This document shows, piece after piece, positions 1 to 17,827 of a stretch of DNA of 33,222 nt. The stretch spans positions 1-33,222 of the forward strand of contig JASFYL010000009.1 in assembly GCA_030055575.1 (NCBI GenBank), read 5' to 3'. The position numbers and the translations under genes are program-made. The notes below the pieces were generated by a model that worked only from the letters and a program-made list of their open reading frames with translations, was not told the origin of the DNA and made no database searches. This stretch comes from Thermoproteota archaeon (GTDB lineage Archaea > Thermoproteota > Methanomethylicia > Methanomethylicales > Methanomethylicaceae). How positions within the stretch are numbered: the first letter of the stretch is position 1; each line of letters starts with the position of its first letter.

Positions 1-270
1 TTCCCCTATCAGTTCATCCCCGCATGTGATCTTGATGTACGTACAGTTCGGCCAGACAAAGCTCCTGTCCGTTGCGCAAGCGTAAACCTTCTTCCTCTTT
101 AATGCCTCCCTAACGCCGACATTGATGCCTTGGCACAGCCCCATCAGCACGCCCTTTTCAGACTCACACTCAAGTCTAAGGACTTCCTCCTTTTCCTCTT
201 CTGTGAGCTCTTTAACACACACTATTCCGCCAATCTTCCTTATTCTATCTGCCATATCACCTTCTGACAT
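1..270 (-). CDS. Unknown protein, 3' end cut by window edge
   Basis: This frame is open from an ATG at 270 to base 1 (90 codons, no stop), so its C-terminus lies outside the window; it is absent from the ORF track because it is incomplete. The product starts MSEGDMADRIRKIGGIVC and continues through an acidic helix (KELTEEEKEEVL) to a Cys-containing part (GLCQGINVG, YACATD, PNCTYIKITC). Five cysteines in 90 residues suggest metal or Fe-S binding, but no standard ferredoxin or zinc-ribbon spacing is clear. The start overlaps the end of the RACE-type activator by 14 nt and has a GGTAAGG-like ribosome site, so it is the next gene of the MCR-activation operon. I do not recognise the family; a link to corrinoid or MCR activation is inferred from position only. 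Confidence 0.7.
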   Translation of the reverse strand, partial: MSEGDMADRIRKIGGIVCVKELTEEEKEEVLRLECESEKGVLMGLCQGINVGVREALKRKKVYACATDRSFVWPNCTYIKITCGDELIGE

Positions 271-2152
271 AGCGCCTTACCACCCTCGGTGCCTTGATGA
301 CCCCCGCAGTCTCCGGAAATTCCTCTAGCCTGCTGTTGGGTATGTACATAGCATTTACGTATTCTTCTTCAAATATTGGTTTTGCTGCTAACTCTATATA
401 CTTTATTTTTGAGGCGACCAGCTGGGCCTCGGTCCTCATTTCTACCGACTTGAGACATAGCCTGGCACCAGACCCTGCTGTGTTCCCAGTAAAAGATATC
501 CTGTCTAATGGGATTTCGGGTATCATTCCAATAGTCCTTGCGCTCCTTGGGTCAATATAATTTCCAAAAGCACCAGCTATAACCACCTCTGAGAGGGAAT
601 TCCTGTCGAAGCCCCCTTCACGCACGAGGGTCATATAACCGGCATAAATCGCGGCTTTTGCTTTTTGGATCTCCCTGATGTCGTCCTGAGTTATCACGAG
701 GTCTTCCTTGCCCGTCTCTGTCTCCTCTTTCCCAACCAATACAAATTCCTTCCCGCCCTCCCCATCCCTGACGCCTCCTCTTTCCAAGATCCTCCCTGAG
801 GTATCTATTAAACCAGCCTTTAGCATCTCGGCCACGGCGTCAATCATCCCGGATCCGCATATCCCCCTGGGCTTCTTGTCGTCGATCGTCTTGTAGGAGA
901 CCCGAAGATCCTCATCGTCGATCCATACCTTCTCGATTGCCCCACTCGCGGCCCTCATGCCGCACCTTATGTGGGCGCCCTCGAAAGCGGGTCCTGATGC
1001 GGTTGAGCATGCCCAAATCCCGTTCTTGTCCCCCAGCATCACTTCGGTGTTTGTCCCTACGTCCATCAGGAGGGTGAGCCTTTCCTTCTCATGGAGCTTG
1101 GAGGCAAGGATATCTGCTATGGCATCCGCGCCCACAAATCCCGCCACGTTGGGGAGGAAGTGCACATTGCCCGAGCGGTTTATCCCTATCCCCACGTCCC
1201 TTGCCTTCGCGTCGAAAGCCCTCCCCATCCCGGCAGCGTATGGCGCCAGTCCAAGGCTCTTCACGTCGATCCCAAAGATGAGGTGATGCATTGCTGTGTT
1301 CCCGACCACGACCGCTTCATATATCTCGTTTCTGTCAATCTCAACGCTCGCAGTACCAGAGCCTATCAACTGGTTTACCCCTTCGAGAACAGCGCTGCGT
1401 ACCTCCTCGAGCTTCTCAATACCCTGCGACGCGTAGTTGATCCTTGTGATCACGTCCTCCCCAAACCTTATCTGCGGATTCATGATTCCATCCGCGTATA
1501 CTATTGATCCATCGTTGAGGTCAACTATGAATGCTGCGAGCTTCGTGGTTCCGACATCCACTGCGAGCCCGTACTTCTTCGCTGTCGTGTCGCCTTTCTC
1601 CAACGCAGTTACCTCTCCCCTACCAGTCACCACGGCAGTGACCTTCCACCCCCCCTCCCTGAATACCCTCGGGAGTTCTCGCGCCACGTGGGCGTCGATC
1701 TTCAGCCCTCTGTATCCCATCTCGGATAGCTTTCCTAGGAGCCTTTCGTCGTCAGCCGAGGGGTCATTCAGTGTTGGGGGTTCAAGCTCGAGGAAGATCT
1801 TTTCAACATTGCACTTCAGCTCTATCATCGGCTCCTTTCCCATTATTACTAGCCTCTGTTTGCCCACTCTGCTCTGGTCTGGCACTCTGACGGTTACCTC
1901 GCCCTTGACGTACGCCTGGCAGGCGAGCCTGTAGTTCTTGTCCCTTTCCCCTGTGATCCTCTTCTTTTCTTGTTCTGTGGGAGGGGAGACCTTTCCATCC
2001 ACAATCTCGATGAGACACTTCCCGCAGTAGCCTTTCCCCCCACAGATGGCAGCGAGATCCACACCACACAGCTGCGCAGCAGACATCAGGGAGGTGCCTT
2101 CTCGGATCCTACATCTCTTCCCTTCCGGAAGGAACCTCACCTCAAAACTCAA
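257..2152 (-). CDS. RACE/RamA-like reductive activator of corrinoid proteins (2Fe-2S + DUF4445 ASKHA ATPase)
   Basis: This 631-residue protein has an N-terminal 2Fe-2S ferredoxin domain (residues about 1-95, ligand motif CGGKGYCGKC plus a later LAC) followed by an ASKHA-type ATPase of the DUF4445 family. ASKHA motifs include GLAVDVGTTKLAAF, VVGNTAMHH, LLMDVGTNTEV and ICGSGMID. In this family (RACo, RamA relatives) ATP hydrolysis drives reduction of inactive Co(II) corrinoid to Co(I) so that methyltransferases can work again. RamA carries C-terminal 4Fe-4S ferredoxin domains; this protein instead has the N-terminal 2Fe-2S layout of the RACE type. The start is TTG inside the atwA end (11-nt overlap) with AGGAGGAAGG upstream, so translation is coupled to atwA. 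The methyltransferase it serves is not in the window. A role in delivering electrons to MCR itself is possible from position but unproven. Confidence 0.88.
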   Translation of the reverse strand: MSFEVRFLPEGKRCRIREGTSLMSAAQLCGVDLAAICGGKGYCGKCLIEIVDGKVSPPTEQEKKRITGERDKNYRLACQAYVKGEVTVRVPDQSRVGKQRLVIMGKEPMIELKCNVEKIFLELEPPTLNDPSADDERLLGKLSEMGYRGLKIDAHVARELPRVFREGGWKVTAVVTGRGEVTALEKGDTTAKKYGLAVDVGTTKLAAFIVDLNDGSIVYADGIMNPQIRFGEDVITRINYASQGIEKLEEVRSAVLEGVNQLIGSGTASVEIDRNEIYEAVVVGNTAMHHLIFGIDVKSLGLAPYAAGMGRAFDAKARDVGIGINRSGNVHFLPNVAGFVGADAIADILASKLHEKERLTLLMDVGTNTEVMLGDKNGIWACSTASGPAFEGAHIRCGMRAASGAIEKVWIDDEDLRVSYKTIDDKKPRGICGSGMIDAVAEMLKAGLIDTSGRILERGGVRDGEGGKEFVLVGKEETETGKEDLVITQDDIREIQKAKAAIYAGYMTLVREGGFDRNSLSEVVIAGAFGNYIDPRSARTIGMIPEIPLDRISFTGNTAGSGARLCLKSVEMRTEAQLVASKIKYIELAAKPIFEEEYVNAMYIPNSRLEEFPETAGVIKAPRVVRRYVRR

Positions 2153-3821
2153 TGCCTTCCTCCTCCAGGAGTCTCTTCACAACCGAGGACGGATCTCCGT
2201 CCATGACAACCCTCCCGTTCAGCATCAGTATTGCACGATCCGAGACCTCCTCTAGGAGATCCAGCTGGTGGCTGACGAGCACAATTGCCGGTCTGAACTT
2301 CTCCTTCACCATCTTGAGCGAGTTGGCAACCGTCCTGAGCGTTATGGGATCCAGGTCCCCAAAGGGCTCGTCGAGGATAAGTACCTTGGGGTTTGCCACG
2401 AGAGACAGCGCCAAGGCTACCCTGATCTTCTCCCCCCCGCTCAGCTCGTAAACATGCCTCTCAAGTATGTTTGTGCCGAGCCCTACAGCCTCAAGCACAG
2501 CTACGGCGACGCTTTTCGCCTTCTCGGGGTCTTTGGTTTTGAAGAGTTCTCTCAGCAGATCTTGGCTCATTCCCATCTCGTCGAGCTTTGCCTTCATCTC
2601 CCCCTCAGGCAGCTCAGAAACCCTGCTCAGTGCGTCAACTACTTCGTCGGAGATCCCGCTCCTTTCAGCCCTTTTCAGCGCAGCCAAAAGTGCCCCGTAG
2701 TCCTTTAACCCAAGCTTCGCTGCGAAGAGGTCCAGCACCTTGGCAAAGTGAGGCAGGTCGAACTCCTGGTGCAGAATCCCGATCCTCCTCCGGGCCATCA
2801 GGTTCTTCCTGCCGAGCCTGCCCAAGACGACCCATTCCCCCTTGTAGGTTATCTTGACCTCCCCCTTGTCTGGGATCTCCAATCCGGAGAGCATCCTGAG
2901 AATTACGGTCTTTCCTGCCCCGGATGGACCGACGATGCCCGTGATCTCCCCCCTCTTGAACTCCAGGTTAGTTTCGGTCATCTCGAAGACCATTCCGTAT
3001 GGGATCAGCTTGTAGACCTTACTTGCCCCCTCCATCTTCAGGACGACCTTGCCGTCCAACTTTACCTTCCTTACAGGAGCCTCCAGCCTGGATAGGAACT
3101 TGGAGAGGACTGCCTCGGTCTTGCCGTCGTCTACCACCCTGCCCTTGTCGATTAGGATGGTCCTCACGGAAAGAGACCTGTGAATTTGCGGATTGTGGGA
3201 GGCGAAGAGGATCGCAGTCCCGAGCTCCCGGTTTGCCCGCTTCAGGGCGTCTAGTAGTGCTTCCCTGGTTGCTGGGCAGGTCATGGTGCCAGGCTCGTCT
3301 AGCAACAGCAGTCTGGGCTTCCTGGCGATCTGACGGGCGATGATCAGCCTCTGCTTCTCTCCACCGCTGAGCACCTCAGACCAAAGCTCGGCGCGCCTTT
3401 CCAAACCAACTACCTTCAGTATCTCCATGGCTCGTTCGCGGTATTCCCTGTACTCTCCCTCCCCCTCTGGGATGGTCTCTTGGAATCCGTCGGAGTACCT
3501 TATCGCCCTGATCACGTTGTCGACTGCACTGTCTGGCCAGAGCCCGAAGCTCCTCTGCAACTGTATTGCAGTCAGCTTCTGGAGCTCGAGAAGATCGCTC
3601 TTTGGCGAGTTTGGGCTGATTTTCAGGTTATCGAAGGAGATGGTCCCAGAATCGAAGCTCTCCACTCCTCTCAAGATCTTCAACAATGTGCTTTTACCTG
3701 CGCCGCTCTCGCCTGCAATGCCAAGTATCTCCCCTTCTTCCATTGAGAATGTTACCCCTTCCAGGGCGATCACGCCATGTTCAGGGTACTTCTTTGTTAA
3801 GCCGTTCACTTCGAGCAACAC
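2142..3821 (-). CDS. atwA: Methyl-coenzyme M reductase activation component A2 (twin ABC ATPase)
   Basis: This 559-residue protein has two complete ABC ATPase modules in tandem and no membrane segments. Module 1 has Walker A GESGAGKST, signature LSGGEKQR and Walker B LLLLDEPG; module 2 has GPSGAGKT, LSGGEKIR and VLILDEPFGD. About 120 residues between Walker A and the signature of module 2 form an extended insert. Component A2 is the ATP-hydrolysing part of the system that reduces Ni in coenzyme F430 of MCR to the active Ni(I) state. The identity rests on the soluble twin-ABC layout, length close to the family's and neighbours mmp7, mmp17, mmp6 and mmp3. It starts at GTG with a GGGGGT site about 7 nt upstream, 13 nt after the mmp7 stop, and overlaps the next gene. 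A generic ABC ATPase is the alternative but is unlikely here. Confidence 0.93.
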   Translation of the reverse strand: MLLEVNGLTKKYPEHGVIALEGVTFSMEEGEILGIAGESGAGKSTLLKILRGVESFDSGTISFDNLKISPNSPKSDLLELQKLTAIQLQRSFGLWPDSAVDNVIRAIRYSDGFQETIPEGEGEYREYRERAMEILKVVGLERRAELWSEVLSGGEKQRLIIARQIARKPRLLLLDEPGTMTCPATREALLDALKRANRELGTAILFASHNPQIHRSLSVRTILIDKGRVVDDGKTEAVLSKFLSRLEAPVRKVKLDGKVVLKMEGASKVYKLIPYGMVFEMTETNLEFKRGEITGIVGPSGAGKTVILRMLSGLEIPDKGEVKITYKGEWVVLGRLGRKNLMARRRIGILHQEFDLPHFAKVLDLFAAKLGLKDYGALLAALKRAERSGISDEVVDALSRVSELPEGEMKAKLDEMGMSQDLLRELFKTKDPEKAKSVAVAVLEAVGLGTNILERHVYELSGGEKIRVALALSLVANPKVLILDEPFGDLDPITLRTVANSLKMVKEKFRPAIVLVSHQLDLLEEVSDRAILMLNGRVVMDGDPSSVVKRLLEEEGIEF

Positions 3822-3834
3822 AGCTTCGACCCCC

Positions 3835-4740
3835 TCAGAACATCGACCTAGGAAGCACTTTCACTAAAATATAATTCCTCATAAGCGATCTCTTGATGAC
3901 CGCAACCTCTGAGAGGCTGCGCCCTTCGATGTTTACCTTGCCTATCCTTTCCTTGTAATCATCGTAAGGTAGCTTGACCCTGATCCCATCTATCTTTAAT
4001 GTGACCGGATTAGGTGAGAGTGCCTCTGCGGCCTCAGGCACCTGCCTCTCTACTTCGTTCTTAACAACAATCGGCTCAACGACCAGTGGATCCATGTCCA
4101 TCTCCCTCCTCCTCTGCTCCACGATTACGCCTGCAAGCCTTGAAACCTCTTTCAGCTTTTCGATAGCATCTCCCGTTCTCGCTCTCTCAGGGTACCTTCC
4201 AATCCCGCCAACGTAGCCTTCGGCGCCTGACAGCCCTCCTATAATGGGTCCCCCAGTCACAATCACCGGGACCTCGATCTCCTGGAAGAGTTTGGTCTTC
4301 TTCAAAAGGCAAGCCTCGAAGTTACCGAGGGTGAATACCGCGAGGTCGTGTTCCTCTATCAGCTCCTTCTCCTTCATTGTGGTGTGGACTATCTTCTGAC
4401 CCACTCCCCTTGAAAGCCCTATTATGTTAGTTTTAGCCCCGTGCCTTCGTAGGTTCTCAGCAATGTCGCACGCAGGATGGGGAAGGTGGTGCCTTGAGAG
4501 CGTGGGTGCGATTACCCCGATCTCAGTGCCTATGAGGGGGGCCTCTGTGATCTTGCCCTTCAACTCTGAGACGATGGTCTTGAGCATTTCCAATTCCTCC
4601 TCCGGGACGGCTATGTTCATTATTAGGTCGAGGCCAACCACTGTCTTCTGGACCACGAATCCGCCCACGTCCTCGAGGAACTCGATTATCCTCTCGTGCC
4701 TATAGAGGCCCCCCTCGAAGAGCAGGAACTTAAGCACCAC
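3835..4740 (-). CDS. mmp7: Methanogenesis marker protein 7 (MCR activation complex subunit)
   Basis: This is Mmp7, a subunit of the MCR activation assembly (component A3a, with McrC, Mmp3 and Mmp17). The ORF track extends it to 322 residues, but that start lies 74 nt inside mmp17. A GTG at 4740 (or 4737) directly after a GGGAGGGGGG purine tract gives about 301 residues starting VVLKFLLFEGG, which fits the usual length near 300. Conserved-looking blocks are SRHHLPHPACDIAENLRRHG, HDLAVFTLGNFEACLL, and a glycine-rich VIVTGGPIIGG. The two cysteines in HPAC and FEAC are candidates for Fe-S cluster ligands (inference). It overlaps the mmp17 stop and precedes atwA by 13 nt, so the three genes are tightly coupled. 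Confidence 0.88.
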   Translation of the reverse strand: MVLKFLLFEGGLYRHERIIEFLEDVGGFVVQKTVVGLDLIMNIAVPEEELEMLKTIVSELKGKITEAPLIGTEIGVIAPTLSRHHLPHPACDIAENLRRHGAKTNIIGLSRGVGQKIVHTTMKEKELIEEHDLAVFTLGNFEACLLKKTKLFQEIEVPVIVTGGPIIGGLSGAEGYVGGIGRYPERARTGDAIEKLKEVSRLAGVIVEQRRREMDMDPLVVEPIVVKNEVERQVPEAAEALSPNPVTLKIDGIRVKLPYDDYKERIGKVNIEGRSLSEVAVIKRSLMRNYILVKVLPRSMF

Positions 4741-5275
4741 TCCCCCCTCCCATTTGCGCGGCGAGCGCTTTCCACTCCTCTTTGATCGGATCCTCGGAGG
4801 CAATTATCGTGAGAGTGCCCTTTCCCCTCGTTGCGCTCCTGACCCTGAATCCTTCTGGGATTATCCTAGTGGCTAGCTCGTTGATCCTCGACTCGAGGTC
4901 GTACCCCTTCTCGCTCAGCCTTATCCCCTTAACCTCGTCTGGGTCTGCCCCAGAGACGAATATCTCGAGCCTGCCTATCTGCTCCACCCTGTCCCTCCCG
5001 TACTTGGACCAGAGTGCCTTGAGCGCATCGCCAAGGAAGATCTCGCTGCTCAAGGTCACCCTTATTCCATTCTTCCTAGAGTCGATATACGAAGCCTCGC
5101 CAAGTGTGCTCTTGCCAGAGAGTTCTTTGTACTTTATCCTGATGATGAAGACAGGCTCCCCGACCTTTATCTTAATCTCGATCGACTCTATGCTTCCGCC
5201 TAGGCCGAGATCCTCTACGCTCTTCTCTGCTATGTACCTGTATTGCTGCCCTCCTAGTTCCTCATCAGCGTCCAC
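4730..5275 (-). CDS. mmp17: Methanogenesis marker protein 17 (MCR activation complex subunit)
   Basis: This 181-residue protein matches Mmp17 in length and in position between mmp6 and mmp7. Mmp17 has been found with Mmp3, Mmp7 and McrC in the MCR activation complex. The sequence contains no cysteine, so any cluster ligands would have to come from partners. The first usual start is a GTG at 5275, giving MDADEELGGQQYRYIAE. A strong ribosome-binding sequence (GGAGGTGG, 5301-5294) instead lies 6 nt before an in-frame GTT at 5287, which would add four residues (VKIF). The annotated start may therefore be a few codons short, or the GTT may be a base error or an unusual start. The end overlaps the mmp7 start. 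Confidence 0.82.
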   Translation of the reverse strand: MDADEELGGQQYRYIAEKSVEDLGLGGSIESIEIKIKVGEPVFIIRIKYKELSGKSTLGEASYIDSRKNGIRVTLSSEIFLGDALKALWSKYGRDRVEQIGRLEIFVSGADPDEVKGIRLSEKGYDLESRINELATRIIPEGFRVRSATRGKGTLTIIASEDPIKEEWKALAAQMGGGSGA

Positions 5276-5282
5276 GAAGATC

Positions 5283-5684
5283 TTAACTGTGTGCCACCTC
5301 CGATTCTATTATCTCCTTGAGCTTACCTACCTCCAGCTTCCCCTTCTTCCTCTTAGCAGGCGCTTCGCCTTCTTCCTCAAGGGCTCTGGAGACATTCCTA
5401 AGGACTTCCCTCTCGGCGCTGAGCATATGATATCCTGGTCTCGGCCCCCCGCCCCTCTTTGCCCTGCAGATTCTCTCGTCCCCTATACGGTACCCTCTTT
5501 GCTTATAGAAGATCCTCTTCGGATCAAGTGCCCTAAGCTCGGCCAAGGCCCTCTCGACGTTTTCTACTTCTCCTTCAATGAGAATACCGTAGCATGTCTC
5601 CTTGTATTCTATCCCTTCAAACGAAGCCGCCTTTTCTGCTAGCATCGATGGCGTCAAGCTAGAATCTGGAGAGAGCACAACCAA
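5283..5684 (-). CDS. mmp6: Methanogenesis marker protein 6
   Basis: This 133-residue protein is assigned to the Mmp6 family from its length, its place in the mmp operon and a block I recall as typical for the family (IFYKQRGYRIGDERICRAKR, then GGGPRPGYHML). A Lys/Glu-rich helical tail (APAKRKKGKLEVGKLKE) follows. The function of Mmp6 is not established; the gene co-occurs with MCR. The first usual start is TTG at 5684. A GGAGGTG site at the end of mmp3 sits about 8 nt before an in-frame ATA (which would add IKTF), while the TTG has no good site, so the start is uncertain. It lies 8 nt after mmp3 and its stop falls 7 nt before the mmp17 GTG. Confidence 0.82.
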   Translation of the reverse strand: MVVLSPDSSLTPSMLAEKAASFEGIEYKETCYGILIEGEVENVERALAELRALDPKRIFYKQRGYRIGDERICRAKRGGGPRPGYHMLSAEREVLRNVSRALEEEGEAPAKRKKGKLEVGKLKEIIESEVAHS

Positions 5685-5692
5685 GAATGTCT

Positions 5693-7222
5693 TTATCGTG
5701 CTCCCACCTCCTGTAAATAGATTTCATCGCCTTCCTTCACGCCTTTAAGCAGAGTGAGCCCTCCGACCACCTCTCCGATGAGGTTGGTTCCGTCAAACCC
5801 TTCGGCAGTGGGACCGAATCTGTCGCTGTCAGTCAGCCTTACCCCGATCATCCCAACGAACTTCTTGACGGTGTTCGTCAGCCCTATCTGCCCTGAGCGT
5901 ACCCTTTCGGTTGGCACATTCTCTGGCGTCAGCCCCTTAGCGATCCCCCCATCCCCCCTGAAGAGCACCATCTCCATCTTGGGGTTTGAGAAGTATACCC
6001 TTAGCTTTCCGTAGGTCTTACGTTCGAGCCCCGTGACCGCCCTGAAGTACTTGACCGAACGCGGTGCGTCTTCGTAGTATAGCCTAACTTTGAGGATCTT
6101 CTCAGGGGACGTTGTCTTGCAGACGACCTCTCTCTTCTTGTAGATCTCGAGAGTGTTCTGGGGCATATGCTCGACTATTATTCCTTCCCTTTCATCACCC
6201 TCTAAGAGCACTTTTATATTCAGTTCCCTGAGGAGCTCCTGGGCCTCGCTGAAACTCTTCCCCAAGATCCTTATCCTTTTCGGACGTGGCAGAACGGAAA
6301 GTACGTCTCCTTCCTCTGCGAGGTCTACGAGCTCCATGCCGCTCAGAACTTTTCCCACGATCGTGTGGGATTGGGCGAGCGGGACGTCCTTCTTGTATAT
6401 GTAAAGCCCACCGACATTCTCGCCGCTATTCCGTACAGTAACAGTCCCCCTTCTTCTTTCCCCCATCTTCTCTGCAACGAGGGATGTCACCTTTAACTCG
6501 TTGCTGCAGATGTAACTGCTGGCATCTGAAGTCACCTTTATGATCCCCTGATCAAGCATGTTATAGGCATGCTCTCCGCAGACTGGTGAGTCGTATTCCA
6601 GGGATAGCTCAACTCGGGTGAAGATCTTGTCAGACTCCTCGAGGATCATCCCGGGCTCTCCCCTCAATAGCGACTTTGTTCTTTCCCTAACCTCCAAGAC
6701 CGGTTTGACTGAGAGTATCTTGTCTCCCATCTTGAGAGAGCCGATCAAGTGTCTCCCATATACGACCCTCCCTAATGCGGCGCACCCCCTTGGCGGATAG
6801 TAAGACGCCAAGTGGGGTCTCTTGGAGAACACGAGGTGGGCATTTTCCCTGCTGAGCCCTGAGAGGCTTATTGTCACTTCTGTTCTGGCGAGTGTTACTG
6901 GTTCGAGCGAAGGTTCTGCGTCAAAGAATGACGGACCAAAAACTACCGCGTCCTTGGTCACCCACCTGACGCCTGAACCCTCGAATCCATGATAAGCCTT
7001 CTTCCACACCTCCAGAAGTACCTTGCAGTCGACCTTGATAATCATACGCCCCTGTGTCGTCTGAAACTCGAACAGATCCGTCTCTATGCTCTCTTCACTG
7101 ACCTTTCTCCTGACCGCTATGAGTCGCCCGTCGGTCGCCCCGAGTCCTGCCTTACTCAGGATCGATCCTAGGCTCTCACCATTCTCTGCCTCGAACTCTT
7201 CCCCATCGATAGCGATCTTCAA
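5693..7222 (-). CDS. mmp3: Methanogenesis marker protein 3 (MCR activation complex subunit)
   Basis: This 509-residue protein has the length and context of Mmp3, described as related to cyclophilin-type peptidyl-prolyl isomerases and as part of the MCR activation complex. The N-terminus resembles a ubiquitin-like fold (IAIDGEEFEAENGESLGSIL). The middle has the HIVF-like segment ENAHLVFSKRPH and PPRGCAALGRVVYG. The C-terminus has cyclophilin-like stretches (KFVGMIGVRLTDSDRFGPT, FDGTNLIGEVVGGLTLL). Cysteines occur in PPRGCAAL, DSPVCGEHAY, SYICSNEL and EVVCKTT and could bind a cluster (inference). It starts at TTG (7222) with GGAG about 10 nt upstream and is the first gene of the minus operon, diverging from mcrD. 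Confidence 0.88.
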   Translation of the reverse strand: MKIAIDGEEFEAENGESLGSILSKAGLGATDGRLIAVRRKVSEESIETDLFEFQTTQGRMIIKVDCKVLLEVWKKAYHGFEGSGVRWVTKDAVVFGPSFFDAEPSLEPVTLARTEVTISLSGLSRENAHLVFSKRPHLASYYPPRGCAALGRVVYGRHLIGSLKMGDKILSVKPVLEVRERTKSLLRGEPGMILEESDKIFTRVELSLEYDSPVCGEHAYNMLDQGIIKVTSDASSYICSNELKVTSLVAEKMGERRRGTVTVRNSGENVGGLYIYKKDVPLAQSHTIVGKVLSGMELVDLAEEGDVLSVLPRPKRIRILGKSFSEAQELLRELNIKVLLEGDEREGIIVEHMPQNTLEIYKKREVVCKTTSPEKILKVRLYYEDAPRSVKYFRAVTGLERKTYGKLRVYFSNPKMEMVLFRGDGGIAKGLTPENVPTERVRSGQIGLTNTVKKFVGMIGVRLTDSDRFGPTAEGFDGTNLIGEVVGGLTLLKGVKEGDEIYLQEVGAR

Positions 7223-7291
7223 TCGATCTACGCTCCAGCGGCAGCACTACATTATTAAATCCCTGATTAATTTATAGGTTAGTGATCCGAG
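7223..7291. promoter_or_regulatory. Divergent promoter region between mmp3 and mcrD
   Basis: This 69-nt gap separates the two operons. It contains ATTATTAAAT near 7249-7258, usable as a TATA-like box in both directions, and ATTAATTTATAGG near 7266-7278 on the plus strand. Both operons must start here, so any regulator bound in this gap could control all MCR-activation genes at once. No convincing inverted repeat is visible. Confidence 0.6.
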
Positions 7292-7618
7292 ATGTCTCAG
7301 TCACCTCACCCTAGAGAGATCGAGGTCATGCCAAGGAGACTGATGAGCTCCAAGAAAGCGACGGATCTCTCTGCTATAATGCGCGAGACCGATGGAGTAG
7401 AAGAGGTTCTTACACACACAATCAAGTACTCGGGGGGAGGAGCCGTAACGGGGAGGTTCATACTCGTCCTCAAGGAGGGATTCAAACCCGAGGATGTGAT
7501 TGAGAAGATAAGACCTGTTTGTGAACAATCGATGCCATATGGCTATGACATCAGGGTGGGTCAGTTCACCAAGCCAAGACCGACTGTTAAGGACTACCTC
7601 CGCGGGCTCAAAAGGTGA
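7292..7618 (+). CDS. mcrD: Methyl-coenzyme M reductase operon protein D
   Basis: This 108-residue protein carries the C-terminal McrD signature YDIRVGQFTKPRPTVKDYL and an N-terminal EVMPRRLMSSKKATDL segment. McrD is usually encoded inside mcrBDCGA and has been reported to bind MCR and assist its assembly, although it is not part of the mature enzyme. It is shorter than McrD of classical methanogens (roughly 130-170 residues): the loop rich in Pro and Gly before the central strand is reduced to KYSGGGAVTGR. Here it leads an operon with mcrC and mmp5, away from mcrBGA. The ATG at 7292 is the only reasonable start, and the stop overlaps the region just before mcrC. Confidence 0.88.
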   Translation: MSQSPHPREIEVMPRRLMSSKKATDLSAIMRETDGVEEVLTHTIKYSGGGAVTGRFILVLKEGFKPEDVIEKIRPVCEQSMPYGYDIRVGQFTKPRPTVKDYLRGLKR

Positions 7619-7623
7619 AACAT

Positions 7624-8304
7624 TTGCAGGATTCGATCGGAAGGGACGTCCAGATTGTCGATTGCCGGGAATCTATGGGCATAGGCGAAGGTGGGGGTCT
7701 TGCCCAGCGCGGTACGATCTCGGAGTCCGAAAGCTTCGAAGTAGTTGCTGTAGCGATGTCTCCCTCGAAGCGGCACATAACAAAGCCTATCTGCGAGATC
7801 ACCTATGGGTTGAGGGAGCAGGGGATACGTACCAGCGTGCTTGTACTGGAGTCCGGGGCGGGTGTCCCTCCCGACTCCCCTTACGGGGGGGCCCCTGGCG
7901 GGTCTATGGCAGGAATCAACGAGAAGGAAGTCTTCCAGATCAGAAGGTTCAAGCTTGCTTTGATGCACCTCGGTGGCATAAGCGGTCATGTAGTACACAA
8001 GGCTAAGTCTTTCTTGAGGTATGTTGACATACCTGCTATTATAGTGTGCGAGGCACCCGTAGACTATGAGGACTTTGCCAAAGTCGGCATAATCACCAGG
8101 CTTGTACGCCCGCCCCCCGGAAAGGTGGAGTGCGCAGGGGTAATACTAGACCTCGTCACTGGGGTGGTCAGGGGTGTAAGCTGCCCGAGGGACAAGCTGA
8201 ATGAGATAGTGATAAAAGTAAAGTTCTGGCTGAGTAAGATCAGCGCTGATGAAGTGATGCTTGGGAGGAACGAGATTGGCAAAGGTATTCATATTCCCGC
8301 CTAA
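7624..8304 (+). CDS. mcrC: Methyl-coenzyme M reductase operon protein C
   Basis: McrC is part of the MCR activation complex (component A3a). The diagnostic motifs are IVDCRESMGIGEGGGLAQRG near the N-terminus, AMSPSKRHITKPICEITYGL, a Gly-rich GVPPDSPYGGAPGG, IIVCEAPVDYEDFAKVGI and GVSCPRDKLNEI. The cysteines in DCRE, PICE, VCEA and SCPR are likely functional (inference: cluster or F430-related chemistry). The ORF track starts at GTG 7615, overlapping the mcrD stop. A TTG at 7624 with AGGTGA 6 nt upstream gives MQDSIGRDVQIVDCRE, which fits the usual short N-terminus better, and is used here. A C-terminal tail of about 20 residues (DEVMLGRNEIGKGIHIPA) extends past the usual end and overlaps the mmp5 start. 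Confidence 0.92.
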   Translation: MQDSIGRDVQIVDCRESMGIGEGGGLAQRGTISESESFEVVAVAMSPSKRHITKPICEITYGLREQGIRTSVLVLESGAGVPPDSPYGGAPGGSMAGINEKEVFQIRRFKLALMHLGGISGHVVHKAKSFLRYVDIPAIIVCEAPVDYEDFAKVGIITRLVRPPPGKVECAGVILDLVTGVVRGVSCPRDKLNEIVIKVKFWLSKISADEVMLGRNEIGKGIHIPA

Positions 8305-8740
8305 CAGCCTAATCCTCTATGATCTGGTGACGCGCGAGGGTCATAAGCCCTTAGGTCTGGGCGAGGAGGTATCAAAGAACCTCTCCAAGCCGGAGATCGA
8401 CTCCCCCCCTATGAACATAACCCCTGAGTTTCCGAGGCGTGGACTGAAGTACGCGGCGATAGAGGTCCCTTCAGGGGTGAGGGGCAGGCTGGCACTGATT
8501 GGGCCCCTTATCGAGGAGGCAGACGCAGCCATAGTCGTTGAGGATCCCGAGGCACTGTTCGGATGCGCTAGCTGCGGCAGGACAAACGAGTTCATCCGAT
8601 ACATAATTAAGCGGAAGGGCCTCCCAGTGGTTACCGTTCCCTACCCCAGAACAGAGGAGGATGCGAAGATAATGGTGTCCAAAATAAGGTCATTCCTGAA
8701 ATCTTTGGGTGATAAGAATGGTATGCCTAGTGGTAGATGA
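8276..8740 (+). CDS. mmp5: Methanogenesis marker protein 5
   Basis: The product (about 154 residues) is assigned to Mmp5 from the start AKVFIFPPNSLILYDLV, the central IDSPPMNITPE and AAIEVPSGVRGRLALIGPLI segments, and a CASCGRTNE CxxC motif. Mmp5 is restricted to organisms with MCR and its role is not known; the CxxC could bind a metal. The TTG at 8276 is preceded by GGGAGG at good spacing and gives the expected N-terminus, so it is preferred over the TTG at 8261 in the ORF track. It overlaps the mcrC end by 29 nt and the following winged-helix gene by 23 nt, which implies coupled translation. Confidence 0.82.
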   Translation: MAKVFIFPPNSLILYDLVTREGHKPLGLGEEVSKNLSKPEIDSPPMNITPEFPRRGLKYAAIEVPSGVRGRLALIGPLIEEADAAIVVEDPEALFGCASCGRTNEFIRYIIKRKGLPVVTVPYPRTEEDAKIMVSKIRSFLKSLGDKNGMPSGR

Positions 8741-9224
8741 TGATAGACTCGCAGGAACCTGTAGCGCTCTCTTGGACGAAAAGTCCAGAGAAGTACTGCT
8801 GTCCCTTCAAAAGGGTCCGCTTACCCTCGACCAGTTGTCCGAGATGCTTATAATAAGCAAGAAAGACGCGAAGGACCGCATAGAGCGCCTCACTGAAGCG
8901 AAGCTGGTCAGGAGGACTCCTGGGATAGCAGGAGGTCCAGACCTATACTCGCTAGAGTTCTCCATGGAGATAGAAGGAGCATGCCCAGATCAGTCCCTGG
9001 TCGAAGAGCTGTACCAAGAGATCGGCAACTCCTTCTTCTCTTTCCTAGAGAAGAACTCTGATAAAATATCTGCACTCTGCGACTCTATGGGAGCTTCCCT
9101 CGGAAGGGCAGTGGAACAAGTATTTCTCAGCTCAGTCTCGAGGGTGGTGAAGGATCTTCAGATCGAGATTAATGAAGAGGACAGGCGGCTTAGCGCCCAC
9201 CTCGGCACAATCCAGCCTACATGA
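8718..9224 (+). CDS. Winged-helix protein, possible regulator of the MCR-activation operon
   Basis: The product (about 168 residues) has a winged helix-turn-helix of ArsR type at about residues 20-70: DEKSREVLLSLQKGPLTL, DQLSEMLIISKKDAKDRIER, LTEAKLVRRT. The C-terminal half (QSLVEELYQEIGNSFFSFLEKN and SVSRVVKDLQIEINEE) is helical and may mediate dimerisation. No metal-binding site is obvious. ATG 8718 is chosen over GTG 8709 because GGTGAT precedes it. The start lies inside mmp5, so it belongs to the mcrD-mcrC-mmp5 operon. I do not recognise a named family; autoregulation of the divergent MCR-activation operons is an inference from position. Confidence 0.75.
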   Translation: MVCLVVDDDRLAGTCSALLDEKSREVLLSLQKGPLTLDQLSEMLIISKKDAKDRIERLTEAKLVRRTPGIAGGPDLYSLEFSMEIEGACPDQSLVEELYQEIGNSFFSFLEKNSDKISALCDSMGASLGRAVEQVFLSSVSRVVKDLQIEINEEDRRLSAHLGTIQPT

Positions 9225-9498
9225 ACCTCTTCAGCATCTCGTTCATCTTTTTTACAATAAACTCCTGCGCCTTTTCGAGGCTCTCCCTGCTCCCCACCAG
9301 TATCCATGCCATTGGGGCCGCCTCATTCTCCCCGATCCCTGGGACTCTGACTTCTCTCTCTCTTAGCTCTACCCCGAAAGTATTGACTGCCTCTGCTATC
9401 ACCGAATACGGAGTCCCAGCTGGGACCGGCAGACAGTAGATCCCATCCTCTCTTTCCCCTCTCTCTCTTCCCACATCCTCGCGGTCTCTATTCCCCAT
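9217..9498 (-). CDS. Small unknown protein, possibly frameshifted at its 5' end
   Basis: The 93-residue ORF encodes a basic-acidic start (GNRDREDVGRERGERED) followed by an ordered part (GIYCLPVPAGTPYSVIAEAV, AAPMAWILVGSRESLEKAQE) ending in a helix. The ordered part looks like a small alpha/beta domain; I do not recognise it. The gene converges on the winged-helix gene with an 8-nt overlap. The start is doubtful. Upstream in another frame there is a coding-like stretch (LQAFRLSEKEINRSQLILEL, then WGIETARMWEERE) that runs into a purine-only tract at about 9440-9475, where one indel would join it to this frame. Either the gene is longer and frameshifted, or the upstream similarity to coding sequence is chance. 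Confidence 0.55.
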   Translation of the reverse strand: MGNRDREDVGRERGEREDGIYCLPVPAGTPYSVIAEAVNTFGVELREREVRVPGIGENEAAPMAWILVGSRESLEKAQEFIVKKMNEMLKRFM

Positions 9499-12988: not shown

Positions 12989-14619
12989 TTGGCGCCCACT
13001 GCCCTCACATACGACAGCTGGAAGTCGTTTATAACCCGCATAGTCCTCAGGCACTCGGCTGCCGTAATTATCCTGTTCCTGTTCTCTGGAGACAATAAGT
13101 CAAAGGTTTCCCTCGCTTTGAAAAGCATTGTCGAGAGCAACTCCCAATTGCCCTCGATATACCTCAGACCGTTCCTTACTAGCGATGTCGCCCTAACGCT
13201 CTCGACCTTCCCCTTTTCACTGAAAAAGATTTGGGGCTCCACTGCGTCGAACTTGCCCTCGGTTGAGAAGAGATAAAATGGAATCTGGAGGAGACTGACT
13301 TCCTCCTTCGATTCTCCTTCGTCGTTTAGCATGAATGACTCGATATTCCAGCAGTCGCTCTTTACTTTACAGAGTATGAACTCCAGATATTGCCTCTCTC
13401 TTTCGAACTTGAGTCTCTCGTTTGCCTCTTGGGCTCTTATTTCAATGAGACCTCGCTCTTTCTCCTCGCTCAAGTTCAAGAGCTGCCTGACCAGCGCCTC
13501 CCTCCTCCCGGTGAAGCACTTGTGGAGGTTGTTGAGTTCATCCTCCTCCTTTGCAGGGAGGAGCCTCTCCTTTTCAAGTATGGTTTTAATCTCTTCATCG
13601 GTTCTATTTGCCTCATCCCTGAGCCTTCCTATCTCTGTAGAGATCTCGTTGAATCTCTTGACACAGCCCTCCAATCCATTGCTGAGCTTCCAGAGTTCCC
13701 TGCTATGTTTCTCCCTGGATCTTACGCTCTCATTGACCTTGCTAGGTAAGTCCCCTGCCTCCAGCACCTCGACCTTATTCTTTTCGATTGCCTCTCGCAG
13801 ACGGTCAATCCTCTTTGATATCGACTTTTTTTGAGAAAGGATCTTCTCCTTTTCAGCCTCAAGCTCGTTAACCTTTGTTCTCAAATCAGCCGCCTTCCTT
13901 TCAAGCACTTCCCTCTCCTGCCTGAGTTCTTCTCTCCTTTTAGCAAAATTCATCTTGAGCTCCTTTGCAACGGCTCTCTCTTTGTAGGTCTCAATGCCCT
14001 CGATCTCAAGGTTCTTCAGCGAGATCTTCTTGTCAAAGTCCTCGAGAATGGACCTGTACTCTTCAGCGAGCTCGAGCTGAACCTTGTTGTGCCGGTCGTT
14101 GAGGGATGCGAGTTCCTTCTCCAACAACCCGATCACACCTCTGTTCGAGTCTAGAATATTCTTTATCCGGAGGGCTATCTTCTGGGCATCCTCCTTTGAG
14201 ACTGCTGGGGGCAGGGCTATTCCGTTGCGCACACCCTCCACGGAGGAGGAATTTTCATTCCAGGTCCTGAGCCAAGGGCATAGGTCGGTGCCTAGAATGG
14301 GCAGTACGTACATCTTTGAGACGAGCCCCTCTTCAGACAAGCTGTCCTCGTAGAGGTACGTCTGGTTCATGCCGAGCCCATCGACAGGGATTATGTGCCC
14401 CTCGCACCTGACGAGGTAGAGTGGATAATAGATCCTGAATATAAAATCCGTCCGGCGCCCTTCTTCTCTAAACACTTTGAGGGCGCTTGTCCATCTTCTC
14501 CTTAGTGCACCAGATGCTTCTAGGATCGCGATCACATCGCTAAGGTCGGGAGTTAGAGCCCTTGTAATGCCGTCCTTGTCTTTTGCGTAGGCAAAGTTCA
14601 GCAGAAATATCGTCATCAC
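12985..14619 (-). CDS. Large coiled-coil protein of unknown function
   Basis: This 544-residue protein has an N-terminal folded domain (about 1-140, including FIFRIYYPLYLVRCEGHIIP and YVLPILGTDLCPWL), a long coiled coil of about 250 residues (for example KRREELRQEREVLERKAADL and KKSISKRIDRLREAIEKNK) and a C-terminal folded part of about 130 residues (for example FILCKVKSDCWNIESFML). Heptad-rich Glu/Lys/Leu content is obvious. The N-terminal MMTIFLLNFAYA looks like a strand rather than a signal peptide. GAGGTG directly precedes the ATG. It leads the operon with GT4 and HMG-CoA reductase and overlaps GT4 by an ATGA. I do not recognise the family; SMC/Rad50 features (Walker motifs) are absent, so it is not an ATPase of that type. 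Confidence 0.8.
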   Translation of the reverse strand: MMTIFLLNFAYAKDKDGITRALTPDLSDVIAILEASGALRRRWTSALKVFREEGRRTDFIFRIYYPLYLVRCEGHIIPVDGLGMNQTYLYEDSLSEEGLVSKMYVLPILGTDLCPWLRTWNENSSSVEGVRNGIALPPAVSKEDAQKIALRIKNILDSNRGVIGLLEKELASLNDRHNKVQLELAEEYRSILEDFDKKISLKNLEIEGIETYKERAVAKELKMNFAKRREELRQEREVLERKAADLRTKVNELEAEKEKILSQKKSISKRIDRLREAIEKNKVEVLEAGDLPSKVNESVRSREKHSRELWKLSNGLEGCVKRFNEISTEIGRLRDEANRTDEEIKTILEKERLLPAKEEDELNNLHKCFTGRREALVRQLLNLSEEKERGLIEIRAQEANERLKFERERQYLEFILCKVKSDCWNIESFMLNDEGESKEEVSLLQIPFYLFSTEGKFDAVEPQIFFSEKGKVESVRATSLVRNGLRYIEGNWELLSTMLFKARETFDLLSPENRNRIITAAECLRTMRVINDFQLSYVRAVGAK

Positions 14620-14635
14620 CTCTAAACCGTACCCG

Positions 14636-14652
14636 TCCTATTTAATCCGATC
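14636..14652 (-). promoter_or_regulatory. TATA-like box for the coiled-coil/GT4/HMGR operon
   Basis: The minus strand reads CGGATTAAATAGGAC here, 17-30 nt before the ATG at 14619. Between this box and the Rpo12 promoter (14653-14869) I see no convincing gene. Confidence 0.5.
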
Positions 14653-14869
14653 TTTTTTATCCTTAACGGACAACCTCTCAAGGGTCTGGGGCATCCTACG
14701 CTTTTCTGATTTCTGTCGGGATCTTGCCCAAGCGGGCATCCGGCCGAACCTTCTCCAGTTTACTGCCGCTTCGCTAATGCTGGATCGTCTGTGGTGACGA
14801 TAATTGACTGATATTCTATAATCCGCTCTTCAGCGAACTGCTTACTTGCGTTGACCTACTGGGACGCGT

Positions 14870-14884
14870 AATGCTTTTTAACAA
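14870..14884 (+). promoter_or_regulatory. TATA-like box for rpo12
   Basis: GTAATGCTTTTTAACAAGG lies about 35-40 nt before the Rpo12 ATG, the expected distance for an archaeal promoter with a short leader. Confidence 0.5.
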
Positions 14885-14914
14885 GGCTTGATTATCGAGT
14901 AGCAGGTGCCACCT

Positions 14915-15067: not shown

Positions 15068-15952
15068 TCATTTCCGCTTCATCATCGTGCAGATCTCGAA
15101 TATCATTTTAGAAGCTAGCAGAGCCGTGATGCCCATATCGTACTTTGGTGCAACTTCCACTATGTCGAAGCCGACGACCCTTTCGTCTATCACCTCTTGG
15201 AGCATATCGAGGAGCAGGCTTGGGTGAATCCCCTCTGGCTCAGGGTTGCCGACCCCAGGGGCATAAGAGGGATCGATGACATCCATGTCGATCGTGATGT
15301 AGACCTTTTCCGAGCCCTTCAGCGCCTCCCTCAACCACGAGGAGGAAGATTTGGTTCCTTCCCTTAATAGGTCCCTCGAGGTCATGAACTTGATTCCGTT
15401 CTCCTTGACCCACCTCAATTCCTCCCCGAAGGTCGCCCTCACCCCGCAGAAGATTACTCTGTCCTTCCCTTCCTCCTCCATCACCCTCCTCATAACGCAG
15501 GCATGAGAGAGCCTGTTCGAGAGGTACTCGTCCCTGAGGTCAAAGTGCGCATCAAAAGATACGAAAGTGCACCCTTTGATCGCCTTGGCTGCCCCGAGCG
15601 TCATGAGATGCTCCCCTCCAACCATAATCGGGATCTTTCTCGTCGAGACGATGTCTTCGACAGTGTCCCCGACCCTCCTTATCGTCTCCCCTGCATCGCC
15701 GTGGACGACTGCTAGGTTTCCGAGGTCGTGAAGCCTGAGTTCCTCAAAATCAGTTCCGGTTCTCCATGACCACGTCTCTATGTTTGCCGAAGCCTCCCTG
15801 ATCGCATCTGGACCGAAGCGCGATCCCGGTCTATAGCTGGAGGTACCGTCAAACGGGACCCCAAAAAGCGCAAAATCCGACTCTGCATAATCCCTTTTGA
15901 ACCCTCCAAAATATGCTGGGCGGTCGTCAAGATAGAATGGAATATGCGGCAT
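15068..15952 (-). CDS. speB: Agmatinase-type ureohydrolase (arginase family)
   Basis: This 294-residue enzyme has the dinuclear Mn site of the ureohydrolase family: MVGGEHLMTLG (His), SFDAHFDLRDEY, RLSHACVMR and VYITIDMDVIDPSYAPG. Agmatinase cuts agmatine into putrescine and urea for polyamine synthesis; arginase or guanidinobutyrase activity cannot be excluded by eye. Length and the N-terminal YAESDFALFGVPFDGTSSYR block fit agmatinase. The ATG at 15952 has GGAGG about 9 nt upstream. A TATA-like AATATATATACC on the minus strand at about 15999-16012 would start transcription near 15978. The gene is monocistronic and diverges from glyS. Confidence 0.88.
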   Translation of the reverse strand: MPHIPFYLDDRPAYFGGFKRDYAESDFALFGVPFDGTSSYRPGSRFGPDAIREASANIETWSWRTGTDFEELRLHDLGNLAVVHGDAGETIRRVGDTVEDIVSTRKIPIMVGGEHLMTLGAAKAIKGCTFVSFDAHFDLRDEYLSNRLSHACVMRRVMEEEGKDRVIFCGVRATFGEELRWVKENGIKFMTSRDLLREGTKSSSSWLREALKGSEKVYITIDMDVIDPSYAPGVGNPEPEGIHPSLLLDMLQEVIDERVVGFDIVEVAPKYDMGITALLASKMIFEICTMMKRK

Positions 15953-15997
15953 TTTTCCAGCGCCTCCATTGACATCTAGCTTCTATGCCTGAGGGCG

Positions 15998-16073
15998 TGG
16001 TATATATATTGAGCTGCTTTCCGTCATGCAGAGCTCAGAGAATCGTCTGAAAAGAGAATATACATATATTCCC
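15998..16073. promoter_or_regulatory. Divergent promoters for agmatinase and glycyl-tRNA synthetase
   Basis: GGTATATATATTGAG (about 15999-16013) is a TATA-like box for the minus-strand agmatinase gene. GAATATACATATATTCC (about 16057-16073) is the TATA-like box for the plus-strand glyS; it also forms an almost perfect inverted repeat, which may be due to its AT content. Confidence 0.55.
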
Positions 16074-16108
16074 TTAACCATCATTTTCTGGTTCAAGAGG
16101 GCTTTCCT

Positions 16109-17827
16109 ATGGACAAGTATGATAAGGTGGTCGAGCTGTGCCGCCGGAGAGGCTTTTTCTGGCCCTCCTCCGAGATCTACGGCGGTGTGGCCGGTTTCTT
16201 GGACTTCGGGCCGATGGGCACAATGCTCAAGAGGAACATCGAGAGGCGCTGGCGGGAAACTTTCATACAAAGCCACCACGGGCTCGTCTACGAGATCGAG
16301 ACGCCTGTGGTTATGCCGGCGCGAGTATTCGAGGCCTCTGGACATGTCGAGAACTTCACCGATGTAATCGTAGAGTGCCTCCAGTGCCACAAGCGCTTCA
16401 GGGCCGACCACCTGATATTAGAGCAGGCTGGGGAGATCCAGGGGATCGAGGGCATGTCCACGAAGGAGCTGGACGAGCTGATCTCTGAGAAGGGAGTTAG
16501 GTGCTCGGAGTGCCGCGGTCCTTTGGGCAAAGTGTCAAGATTTAACTTGCTCTTCAGGACCAACATCGGACCTTATTCTGAAAGTGTTGCCTACCTTAGG
16601 CCTGAGGCAGCACAGGGAATGTTCGTCAACTTCAAGAGCATCTTCAACGCCATGAGGGAACGCCTCCCGATGGGACTTGCACAGATAGGCAAGGTGGCTA
16701 GGAACGAGATCTCCCCTAGGCAGGGGCCGATCAGGCTCAGGGAGTTTACTATAATGGAGGTTGAGTTCTTCTTCGACCCGAAGGCTCCAGGTTGCACGTT
16801 GATAGATGAGGTGTCTGATGTCAGGCTTAGGCTTCTCACCGAGGATATGGTAAAAACCAAGACTGAAGAACCTATGGAAGTTCGAGTCGCTGAAGCACTG
16901 AAAGAGGGGTATATCAAGACTGAATGGCTCGCCTACTTCATGGCCCTCTCGACACGGTTCATATCCGAGCTAGGCGCCCCGACAGCATCACAGATGTTCG
17001 TTGCGAAGCTCCCGGACGAGCGGGCACATTACTCTGCTCAGACCTTCGACCAGCTGGTTAGACTCGATAGGTGGGGGTGGGTTGAAGTTTCGGGGCATGC
17101 CTACCGTACAGATTACGACCTCTCGCGCCACATCCAATATAGCGGCCAAGACCTCTCAGCGTTCAGGAAATTCCAAACCCCGCACCCAGTAAGAGTTACC
17201 GTCGCAAAGCCGAAGGTGGAGAGGATAAGCGCTGACTACGGTAAGGAAACCGGAAAAATCCTCTCAGCGATTAAGGGGATTGACCCTGGCGCACTCAAAT
17301 CCAGGCTATCCTCTGGTCCAGTCGAGGTAGACGGACTCATCATCCGATCAGAATATGTGGAGTTTTTGGAGAAGGAGGAAACTCTAAGCGGGGAACGGTT
17401 CGTTCCGCATGTGGCTGAGCCATCTTTCGGAGCTGACAGACTAACCTACCTGGCGCTCGAATGCGCTTACACGGAGCGGGAAGACCGAGTGGTTCTGAAG
17501 CTCCCTCCCTCGATTGCCCCTGTCCAAGTTTCGGTTTTCCCGCTTGTCAACCGGGACGGCATCTGGGAGAAGGCCTTCTCAATACACGACTTAGTCAGGC
17601 GCGCCGGCATGATATCGGAATTCGACGACTCCGGTTCTATCGGCAGGCGGTATGCGAGGGCTGATGAGATCGGATGCCCATTTGCTGTGACTGTCGACTA
17701 CCAGACAATGGCCGATGATACGGTGACCGTCAGAGACCGCGACTCGTGGGAGCAGACGAGGGTGCCTGTGAATGGACTTAAGGAGTTCCTCTGGAGCCGT
17801 CTTGCTCCGTTACGCTTTATAACATGA
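16109..17827 (+). CDS. glyS: Glycyl-tRNA synthetase, archaeal/eukaryal homodimeric type
   Basis: This 572-residue class II aminoacyl-tRNA synthetase charges tRNA-Gly. Visible features are the N-terminal RRRGFFWPSSEIYGGVAGFL with DFGPMGTMLKRN, a CLQCHKRF/CSECRGPLG metal-binding insertion, YLRPEAAQGMFVNF, motif 2 as ARNEISPRQGPIRLREFTI, motif 3 as EPSFGADRLTYLALE and a C-terminal anticodon-binding domain (PPSIAPVQVSVFPLVNRDG). The usual FRNE of motif 2 reads ARNE and the usual G(I/V)DR reads GADR; both are mild deviations. The ATG is the first codon of the open frame. It lies 29 nt before the next gene and could be co-transcribed with it. Confidence 0.94.
   Translation: MDKYDKVVELCRRRGFFWPSSEIYGGVAGFLDFGPMGTMLKRNIERRWRETFIQSHHGLVYEIETPVVMPARVFEASGHVENFTDVIVECLQCHKRFRADHLILEQAGEIQGIEGMSTKELDELISEKGVRCSECRGPLGKVSRFNLLFRTNIGPYSESVAYLRPEAAQGMFVNFKSIFNAMRERLPMGLAQIGKVARNEISPRQGPIRLREFTIMEVEFFFDPKAPGCTLIDEVSDVRLRLLTEDMVKTKTEEPMEVRVAEALKEGYIKTEWLAYFMALSTRFISELGAPTASQMFVAKLPDERAHYSAQTFDQLVRLDRWGWVEVSGHAYRTDYDLSRHIQYSGQDLSAFRKFQTPHPVRVTVAKPKVERISADYGKETGKILSAIKGIDPGALKSRLSSGPVEVDGLIIRSEYVEFLEKEETLSGERFVPHVAEPSFGADRLTYLALECAYTEREDRVVLKLPPSIAPVQVSVFPLVNRDGIWEKAFSIHDLVRRAGMISEFDDSGSIGRRYARADEIGCPFAVTVDYQTMADDTVTVRDRDSWEQTRVPVNGLKEFLWSRLAPLRFIT

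Follow-up and report, generated by a model that had tools for sequence, protein, structure and literature searches.

Gene content of the locus

The DNA analysed here is a stretch of 33,222 nucleotides, called the window below, which is an entire contig (JASFYL010000009.1, C97 in our numbering) of a 1.36-Mb genome that is ~88% complete. It carries genes for the activation of methyl-coenzyme M reductase (MCR) in two divergent operons. Its McrC is 97% identical to those of Ca. Methanosuratincola petrocarbonis V4 and Ca. M. subterraneus Ch88 and, judged by this identity, the source genome belongs to Ca. Methanosuratincola, class Methanomethylicia. The reading that best explains the whole, and that we hold with good confidence, is that the window contains the Methanomethylicales version of the MCR activation locus, as part of an MCR island of ~30 kb. 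The locus is real and well conserved; it represents a lineage-specific form of a marker cluster that is already known, and loci of this kind have been described before. New are the reassignment of component A2, the adjacency of two contigs, the joint encoding of an A2 paralogue and a RACo-type activase, and a conserved divergent control block.

Protein families were assigned with the curated cut-offs of NCBIfam (TIGR) and the gathering scores of Pfam, and bit scores are given as score/cut-off. Running leftward on the minus strand are mmp3 (5693-7222; TIGR03268 482/234 bits; PDB 8s7v_J 287 bits), mmp6 (5283-5684; TIGR03272 132/126; PF09875 above cut-off), mmp17 (4730-5275; TIGR03291 115/67; PF09886 above cut-off) and mmp7 (3835-4803; TIGR03274 392/349). 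The TIGR03274 match starts at residue 26 of the mmp7 frame, and the true start is probably near 4737. The plus strand carries mcrD (7292-7618), mcrC (7615-8304; TIGR03264 283/213.5; PDB 8s7v_I 233 bits), mmp5 (8261-8740; TIGR03271 212/140; PF09885 203/25) and a putative winged-helix gene (8709-9224), all running rightward, and 69 nt (7223-7291) lie between the starts of mmp3 and mcrD. Gene order, strands and gap are those described in an earlier reading of the same sequence (the original prediction). Mmp3, Mmp6, Mmp17, Mmp7, McrC and Mmp5 each score above the NCBIfam cut-off, which bears out these identities and also the proposal of an MCR activation locus with McrC, Mmp3, Mmp7 and Mmp17.

The mcrD gene encodes a short form of 108 aa. 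It is recognised by the Pfam MCR_D family (PF02505, 45/25) and matches solved McrD structures (PDB 8w33, 8gf5), so that the assignment stands, although the score is under the cut-off of TIGR03260 (48/100). An iterative profile linked it to the McrD proteins of mcr operons, and on these matches we regard it as a genuine, though short and divergent, mcrD. In a search of the whole genome, at its ~88% completeness, mcrC and mcrD were each found in a single copy, and a second intact mcrBDCGA operon with its own mcrC and mcrD, which would have made the window copies secondary, was absent.

The residues that bind iron-sulfur clusters are retained. An alignment to PDB 8s7v places McrC ligands C17, H54, C60 and H125 at C12, H49, C55 and H118 of the Methanococcus maripaludis protein, and Mmp7 ligands H106, C112 and C165 at H84, C90 (a possible ligand) and C143. 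The Tyr-Phe pair with which Mmp3 holds the McrA latch is also conserved. Taking the likely mmp7 start, the genes of the leftward operon overlap or are separated by no more than about 15 nt throughout, and from this spacing we infer that mmp3 to p1, the last gene of the series, are co-transcribed as one unit.

An A2 paralogue in place of AtwA

The leftward operon continues beyond mmp7 with a gene for a tandem ABC (ATP-binding cassette) ATPase (2142-3821, minus strand). It had been taken for atwA, but its product is not component A2: it scores 319 bits with TIGR03269, for which 517 are required, has no zinc motif and falls into a separate clade. The true atwA (722 bits with TIGR03269) is located at 13299-14885 of another contig, C79, ~20 kb from the window gene and beside mcrBGA. 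The solved A2 chain matches the C79 protein with 581 bits versus 237 bits for the window protein, to which we refer as the A2 paralogue ('A2p') and which should not carry the AtwA annotation.

All 22 genomes tested (Methanomethylicia, Nezhaarchaeota and Euryarchaeota) encode a true A2, and 20 of them also have a match with a score in the range of the paralogue. In a phylogenetic tree the two form separate clades with support 100/100, each with Thermoproteota and euryarchaeal members; the duplication therefore appears to be ancient, unless transfer is invoked. The zinc-binding Cys4 loop, a conserved feature that A2 proteins of methanogens share with those of methanotrophs (PMC12176620), was intact in 15/15 A2 sequences and deleted in 14/14 paralogues. 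Walker A, signature, Walker B and His motifs are present in both halves of the window protein, i.e. two ATPase sites are intact. At the A2 latch residues P396/F399, a variable region in which alignments disagree, the F399 site holds E, D or N in the paralogues and F or L in A2.

Since counts based on TIGR03269 alone did not separate paralogues from second copies of true A2, an alignment of the paralogue was used for counting. Among 257 Halobacteriota genomes, A2 was detected in 156, the paralogue in 98 and McrD in 120. The paralogue is almost restricted to genomes with A2 (94/98), and in 32 genomes the paralogue and A2 occur without McrD. AtwA-like paralogues as such are not new, because a 2011 table of methanogen markers already lists a 'paralog of AtwA' (PMC3226654); AtwA1 and AtwA2 are also distinguished elsewhere (PMC3087415). 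These second A2-like ABC proteins of MCR-bearing archaea are candidate counterparts of the clade in the window. What distinguishes the clade described here is that it is a zinc-motif-free sister clade of A2, linked to MCR activation genes in both Methanomethylicia and Nezhaarchaeota, and that many MCR-bearing Halobacteriota do not have it.

A RACo-type activase in the same operon

The leftward operon is closed by two genes that were overlooked in the first reading, a RACo-type gene and p1. The former (257-2152, minus strand) encodes a predicted ATP-dependent reductive activator of corrinoid proteins, with Fer2 (2Fe-2S), RACo_linker, Raco_middle and RACo_C_ter (ASKHA) domains, all above the Pfam cut-off. 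It matches RACo, the activator of the corrinoid/iron-sulfur protein (PDB 3zyy), over the full length with 421 bits and is alike in length and complete domain set; it differs from it in being encoded inside an MCR activation operon. No paper linking RACo to MCR markers was found in the literature searched.

A strong RACo match lies within the MCR cluster of every Methanomethylicales genome tested, and in G022, G030, G083 and G090 this copy is the only RACo of the genome, though 4-5 corrinoid-protein domains are encoded. The six euryarchaeal genomes tested (hydrogenotrophic, aceticlastic and ANME), all with MCR activation genes, contained no RACo. The cluster RACo most likely maintains the Co(I) state of the corrinoid proteins of methyltransferases. 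If it serves these proteins, one operon carries the reductive activation of both nickel and cobalt, and a single transcript may then provide for the activation of nickel in MCR and of cobalt in corrinoid proteins. The genome of the window also holds another gene of RACo/RamA type (G000:C24 58785-60757), immediately adjacent to one for a corrinoid protein.

Contig junction and MCR island

The window starts within p1, the 5' part of which (1-270, minus strand) continues on C79:1-366. Within this gene, the two contigs share an overlap of 92 identical bases, the start of C79 repeating the start of the window on the reverse strand. In the joined sequence, mcrD and the mcrA stop are ~24.8 kb apart. 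A 371-kb contig of Ch88 shows the same gene order without a break. The original prediction had described the activation genes as separated from mcrBGA. This is correct at the level of operons; the apparent distance, however, results mostly from the break between two abutting contigs, C97 and C79, and mcrC and mcrD are about 25 kb from mcrBGA in the same island rather than at an unrelated locus.

On C79, mcrBGA is contiguous and contains neither mcrC nor mcrD, so it is not an mcrBDCGA operon. Upstream of it are mmp15 (599/456 bits), ycaO (468/365), tfuA (247/235), atwA, an mmp2-like gene (239 bits, under the cut-off of 365), DUF2098 (15886-16167; 62.8/25), a HAD-type gene and a DUF483 gene. The island thus reads: window operons, ~10 kb of unrelated genes, mmp15-ycaO-tfuA-atwA, mmp2-like gene, DUF2098, mcrBGA. 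Because true A2, DUF2098 and Mmp15 are encoded with mcrBGA on the adjoining contig, the window alone does not contain the near-complete activation module that had been proposed.

Across the Methanomethylicales, the activation operon ends with a conserved gene of the p1 family (about 181 aa in relatives). The family had no Pfam or NCBIfam match; its AlphaFold model has a predicted local distance difference test score of 89, and a fold search against PDB with this model gave no match (best E 0.14).

A conserved block between the operons

Within the 69-nt gap, a block of 45 bp (7244-7288) is 96-100% identical among the Methanosuratincola genomes compared, versus 63-73% in the 320 bp on each side. 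It contains two TATA-like boxes, TTATTAAA at 7252-7259 on the plus strand and TATAAATTA at 7268-7276 on the minus strand, flanked by an inverted repeat, CACTA (7245-7249) and TAGTG (7280-7284). We regard the block as a putative divergent promoter/operator that most likely co-regulates both operons. Joint control, suggested in the first reading from the arrangement of the genes, thus gains sequence support, because the footprint is conserved above its flanks. A scan of the region for sigma-70-type promoters, which are not the appropriate class here, gave no match.

The protein encoded at 8709-9224 is a candidate regulator of the block. The gene is present in the order and on the strand predicted, but its family call rests on sub-threshold Pfam helix-turn-helix matches, together with synteny. 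A probable winged-helix homologue (19-26% identity in the alignment) is found between mmp17 and mcrB in Nezhaarchaeota, and the gene is absent from part of the Methanomethylicales.

Gene order in other lineages

The divergent mmp3/mcrD-mcrC layout was seen in 17/17 Methanomethylicales records, and each of the 16 records long enough to cover them also has the A2 paralogue and RACo. In Nezhaarchaeota, a region of about 20 kb has the order mcrC/mmp3-mmp6-mmp17, winged helix, mcrBGA, A2 paralogue, mcrD, sm93 (a small protein gene described below), DUF2098, DUF483, mmp5, mmp15, mmp7, A2. Four euryarchaeal loci read A2-mmp3-mmp6-mmp5-mmp15-mmp17-mmp7, with the paralogue located elsewhere.

For Methanomassiliicoccales, mcrC, Mmp3, Mmp7, AtwA and mcrBDGA were reported within ~16 kb in 2014 (PMC4153887). 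As in the window, mcrC is found there with Mmp7, Mmp17, Mmp3 and related markers and not inside mcrBDGA. The two differ in that the Methanomassiliicoccales cluster includes AtwA and an Mmp15-type activase and leaves mcrD in the mcr operon, whereas the present cluster has mcrD next to mcrC and includes the A2 paralogue and RACo, and AtwA is encoded beside mcrBGA. With the euryarchaeal marker operon AtwA-mmp3-mmp6-mmp5-mmp15-mmp17-mmp7 (M. mahii, PMC3226654) the window shares the core mmp3-mmp6-...-mmp17-mmp7 on one strand; here, however, mmp5 belongs to the divergent mcrDC operon, mmp15 and AtwA are located towards mcrBGA, and mmp7 is followed by the A2 paralogue, RACo and p1. Homologues of all components of the MCR activation complex of M. 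maripaludis (PMC12176620; PDB 8s7v, 8s7x, 9h1l) are encoded in the present genome, with the cluster ligands of McrC and Mmp7 kept; the activation genes are dispersed in M. maripaludis, while here they are split between two places in one island, with ~25 kb between them.

A separate mcrC is also known in ANME-1 and Methanoperedens (PMC9081873). As clustered markers or a separate mcrC thus occur in Methanomassiliicoccales, Nezhaarchaeota, ANME-1 and Methanoperedens as well, we class the locus as a lineage variant. Nor is it an unusually self-contained unit, as had been claimed, since the Methanomassiliicoccales cluster and the Nezhaarchaeota region, with nearly the whole set in one place, are comparable. 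The review cited above states that Verstraetearchaeota have a complete mcrBDCGA operon (PMC9081873), which conflicts with the Methanomethylicales genomes analysed here. In Methanothrix (records L051-L113), mcrC is outside any mcr operon, with no mcrBDGA within the flanks covered.

Proposed function and alternative explanations

The roles considered here are taken from work on M. maripaludis and other models and are transferred by homology and conserved ligands. McrC, Mmp7 and Mmp17 would carry an iron-sulfur relay, and Mmp3 would hold the opened McrA latch. Together with true A2 and DUF2098 from C79, F430 would, by analogy, be reduced to Ni(I) in an ATP-dependent manner, and McrD would assist MCR assembly. 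The leftward operon would also yield the A2 paralogue, which is of an MCR lineage, and a RACo-type activase for the corrinoid Co(I) state. If the shared 45-bp block co-regulates both operons, they would be switched on together, and with them Ni(I) and Co(I) activation in a methyl-reducing methanogen. That one operon under a single divergent control block couples the reductive activation of two low-potential metals of methyl-reducing methanogenesis, nickel (F430) and cobalt (corrinoid methyltransferases), in Methanomethylicales, with the A2 paralogue as a second dedicated ABC motor, is a tentative proposal to which we give less than even odds.

Several observations weigh against this interpretation. 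The footprint is conserved genus-wide only, and the idea that it also controls mcrB was dropped after a motif search upstream of mcrB gave no match. RACo was also found outside the MCR region in Nezhaarchaeota G121 and G127, for which the search used on the Methanomethylicales showed one or no corrinoid protein; RACo is therefore not strictly tied to those corrinoid proteins. Finally, 58 Halobacteriota genomes have A2 and McrD without the paralogue, which is therefore not needed for MCR activation in general. These 58 include G407 (Methanocella) and G412, and several have two true A2 copies.

Among other explanations, we give most weight, though still little, to one in which the A2 paralogue and RACo both act on MCR itself, RACo as an ATP-driven low-potential donor to the distal iron-sulfur cluster of Mmp7/Mmp17 and the paralogue as a second ABC motor at another stage of activation or repair. 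The physiological electron donor of the MCR activation complex is unknown (PMC12176620), both genes are within the mmp3-6-17-7 operon in 16/16 Methanomethylicales records covering that part, and the paralogue, rarely seen without A2, adjoins mcrA and mcrD in Nezhaarchaeota. However, RACo is missing from the six euryarchaeal genomes with MCR activation genes and matches a corrinoid-protein activator of solved structure across its full length, while the paralogue is missing from the 58 MCR genomes and, in those euryarchaeal genomes that were examined, lies at a distance from the marker operon. The same position beside mcrD might suggest that the paralogue is a partner of McrD in F430 loading and MCR assembly. 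This is very improbable, as the paralogue occurs with A2 but without McrD in 32 genomes and McrD without the paralogue in 58, and a phylogenetic profile of this kind rules out an obligate partnership.

We consider it equally implausible that 2142-3821 is AtwA after all and that the window alone encodes a near-complete, self-contained activation machine. A2 is indeed the best NCBIfam match of the window protein, and the solved A2 chain is its sole PDB match at E<1e-40. Yet the score is under the curated A2 cut-off, a full-scoring A2 is present in the same genome and in 21/21 other genomes tested, the zinc motif occurs in no paralogue, and the two clades are separated with full support. The reading of the window as the Methanomethylicales activation locus, with its true A2 on the adjoining contig, is thus preferred. 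MCR activation is a bottleneck for in vitro work and for heterologous MCR production, and the co-encoded mcrC/mcrD, mmp3/6/17/7, A2 paralogue and RACo provide a compact list of candidates for testing.

Neighbouring genes

Next to the winged-helix gene, the minus strand encodes an unannotated small protein, sm93 (9217-9498), which recurs beside mcrC/mcrD. Proteins of this type (~75-93 aa) were seen near these genes in Methanomethylicales, Nezhaarchaeota and Methanothrix (L034-L060, L135-L180). A confident predicted model has a beta-alpha-beta-beta-alpha fold, for which a fold search gave weak KH-like matches only (best E 0.017). On C79, upstream of mcrB (L129 11508-15331), a gene for a helix-turn-helix regulator adjoins mcrB and is followed by genes resembling an ABC transporter of the nitrate/sulfonate type. 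A substrate-binding protein similar to that of these transporter-like genes is encoded in the window at 25357-26391.

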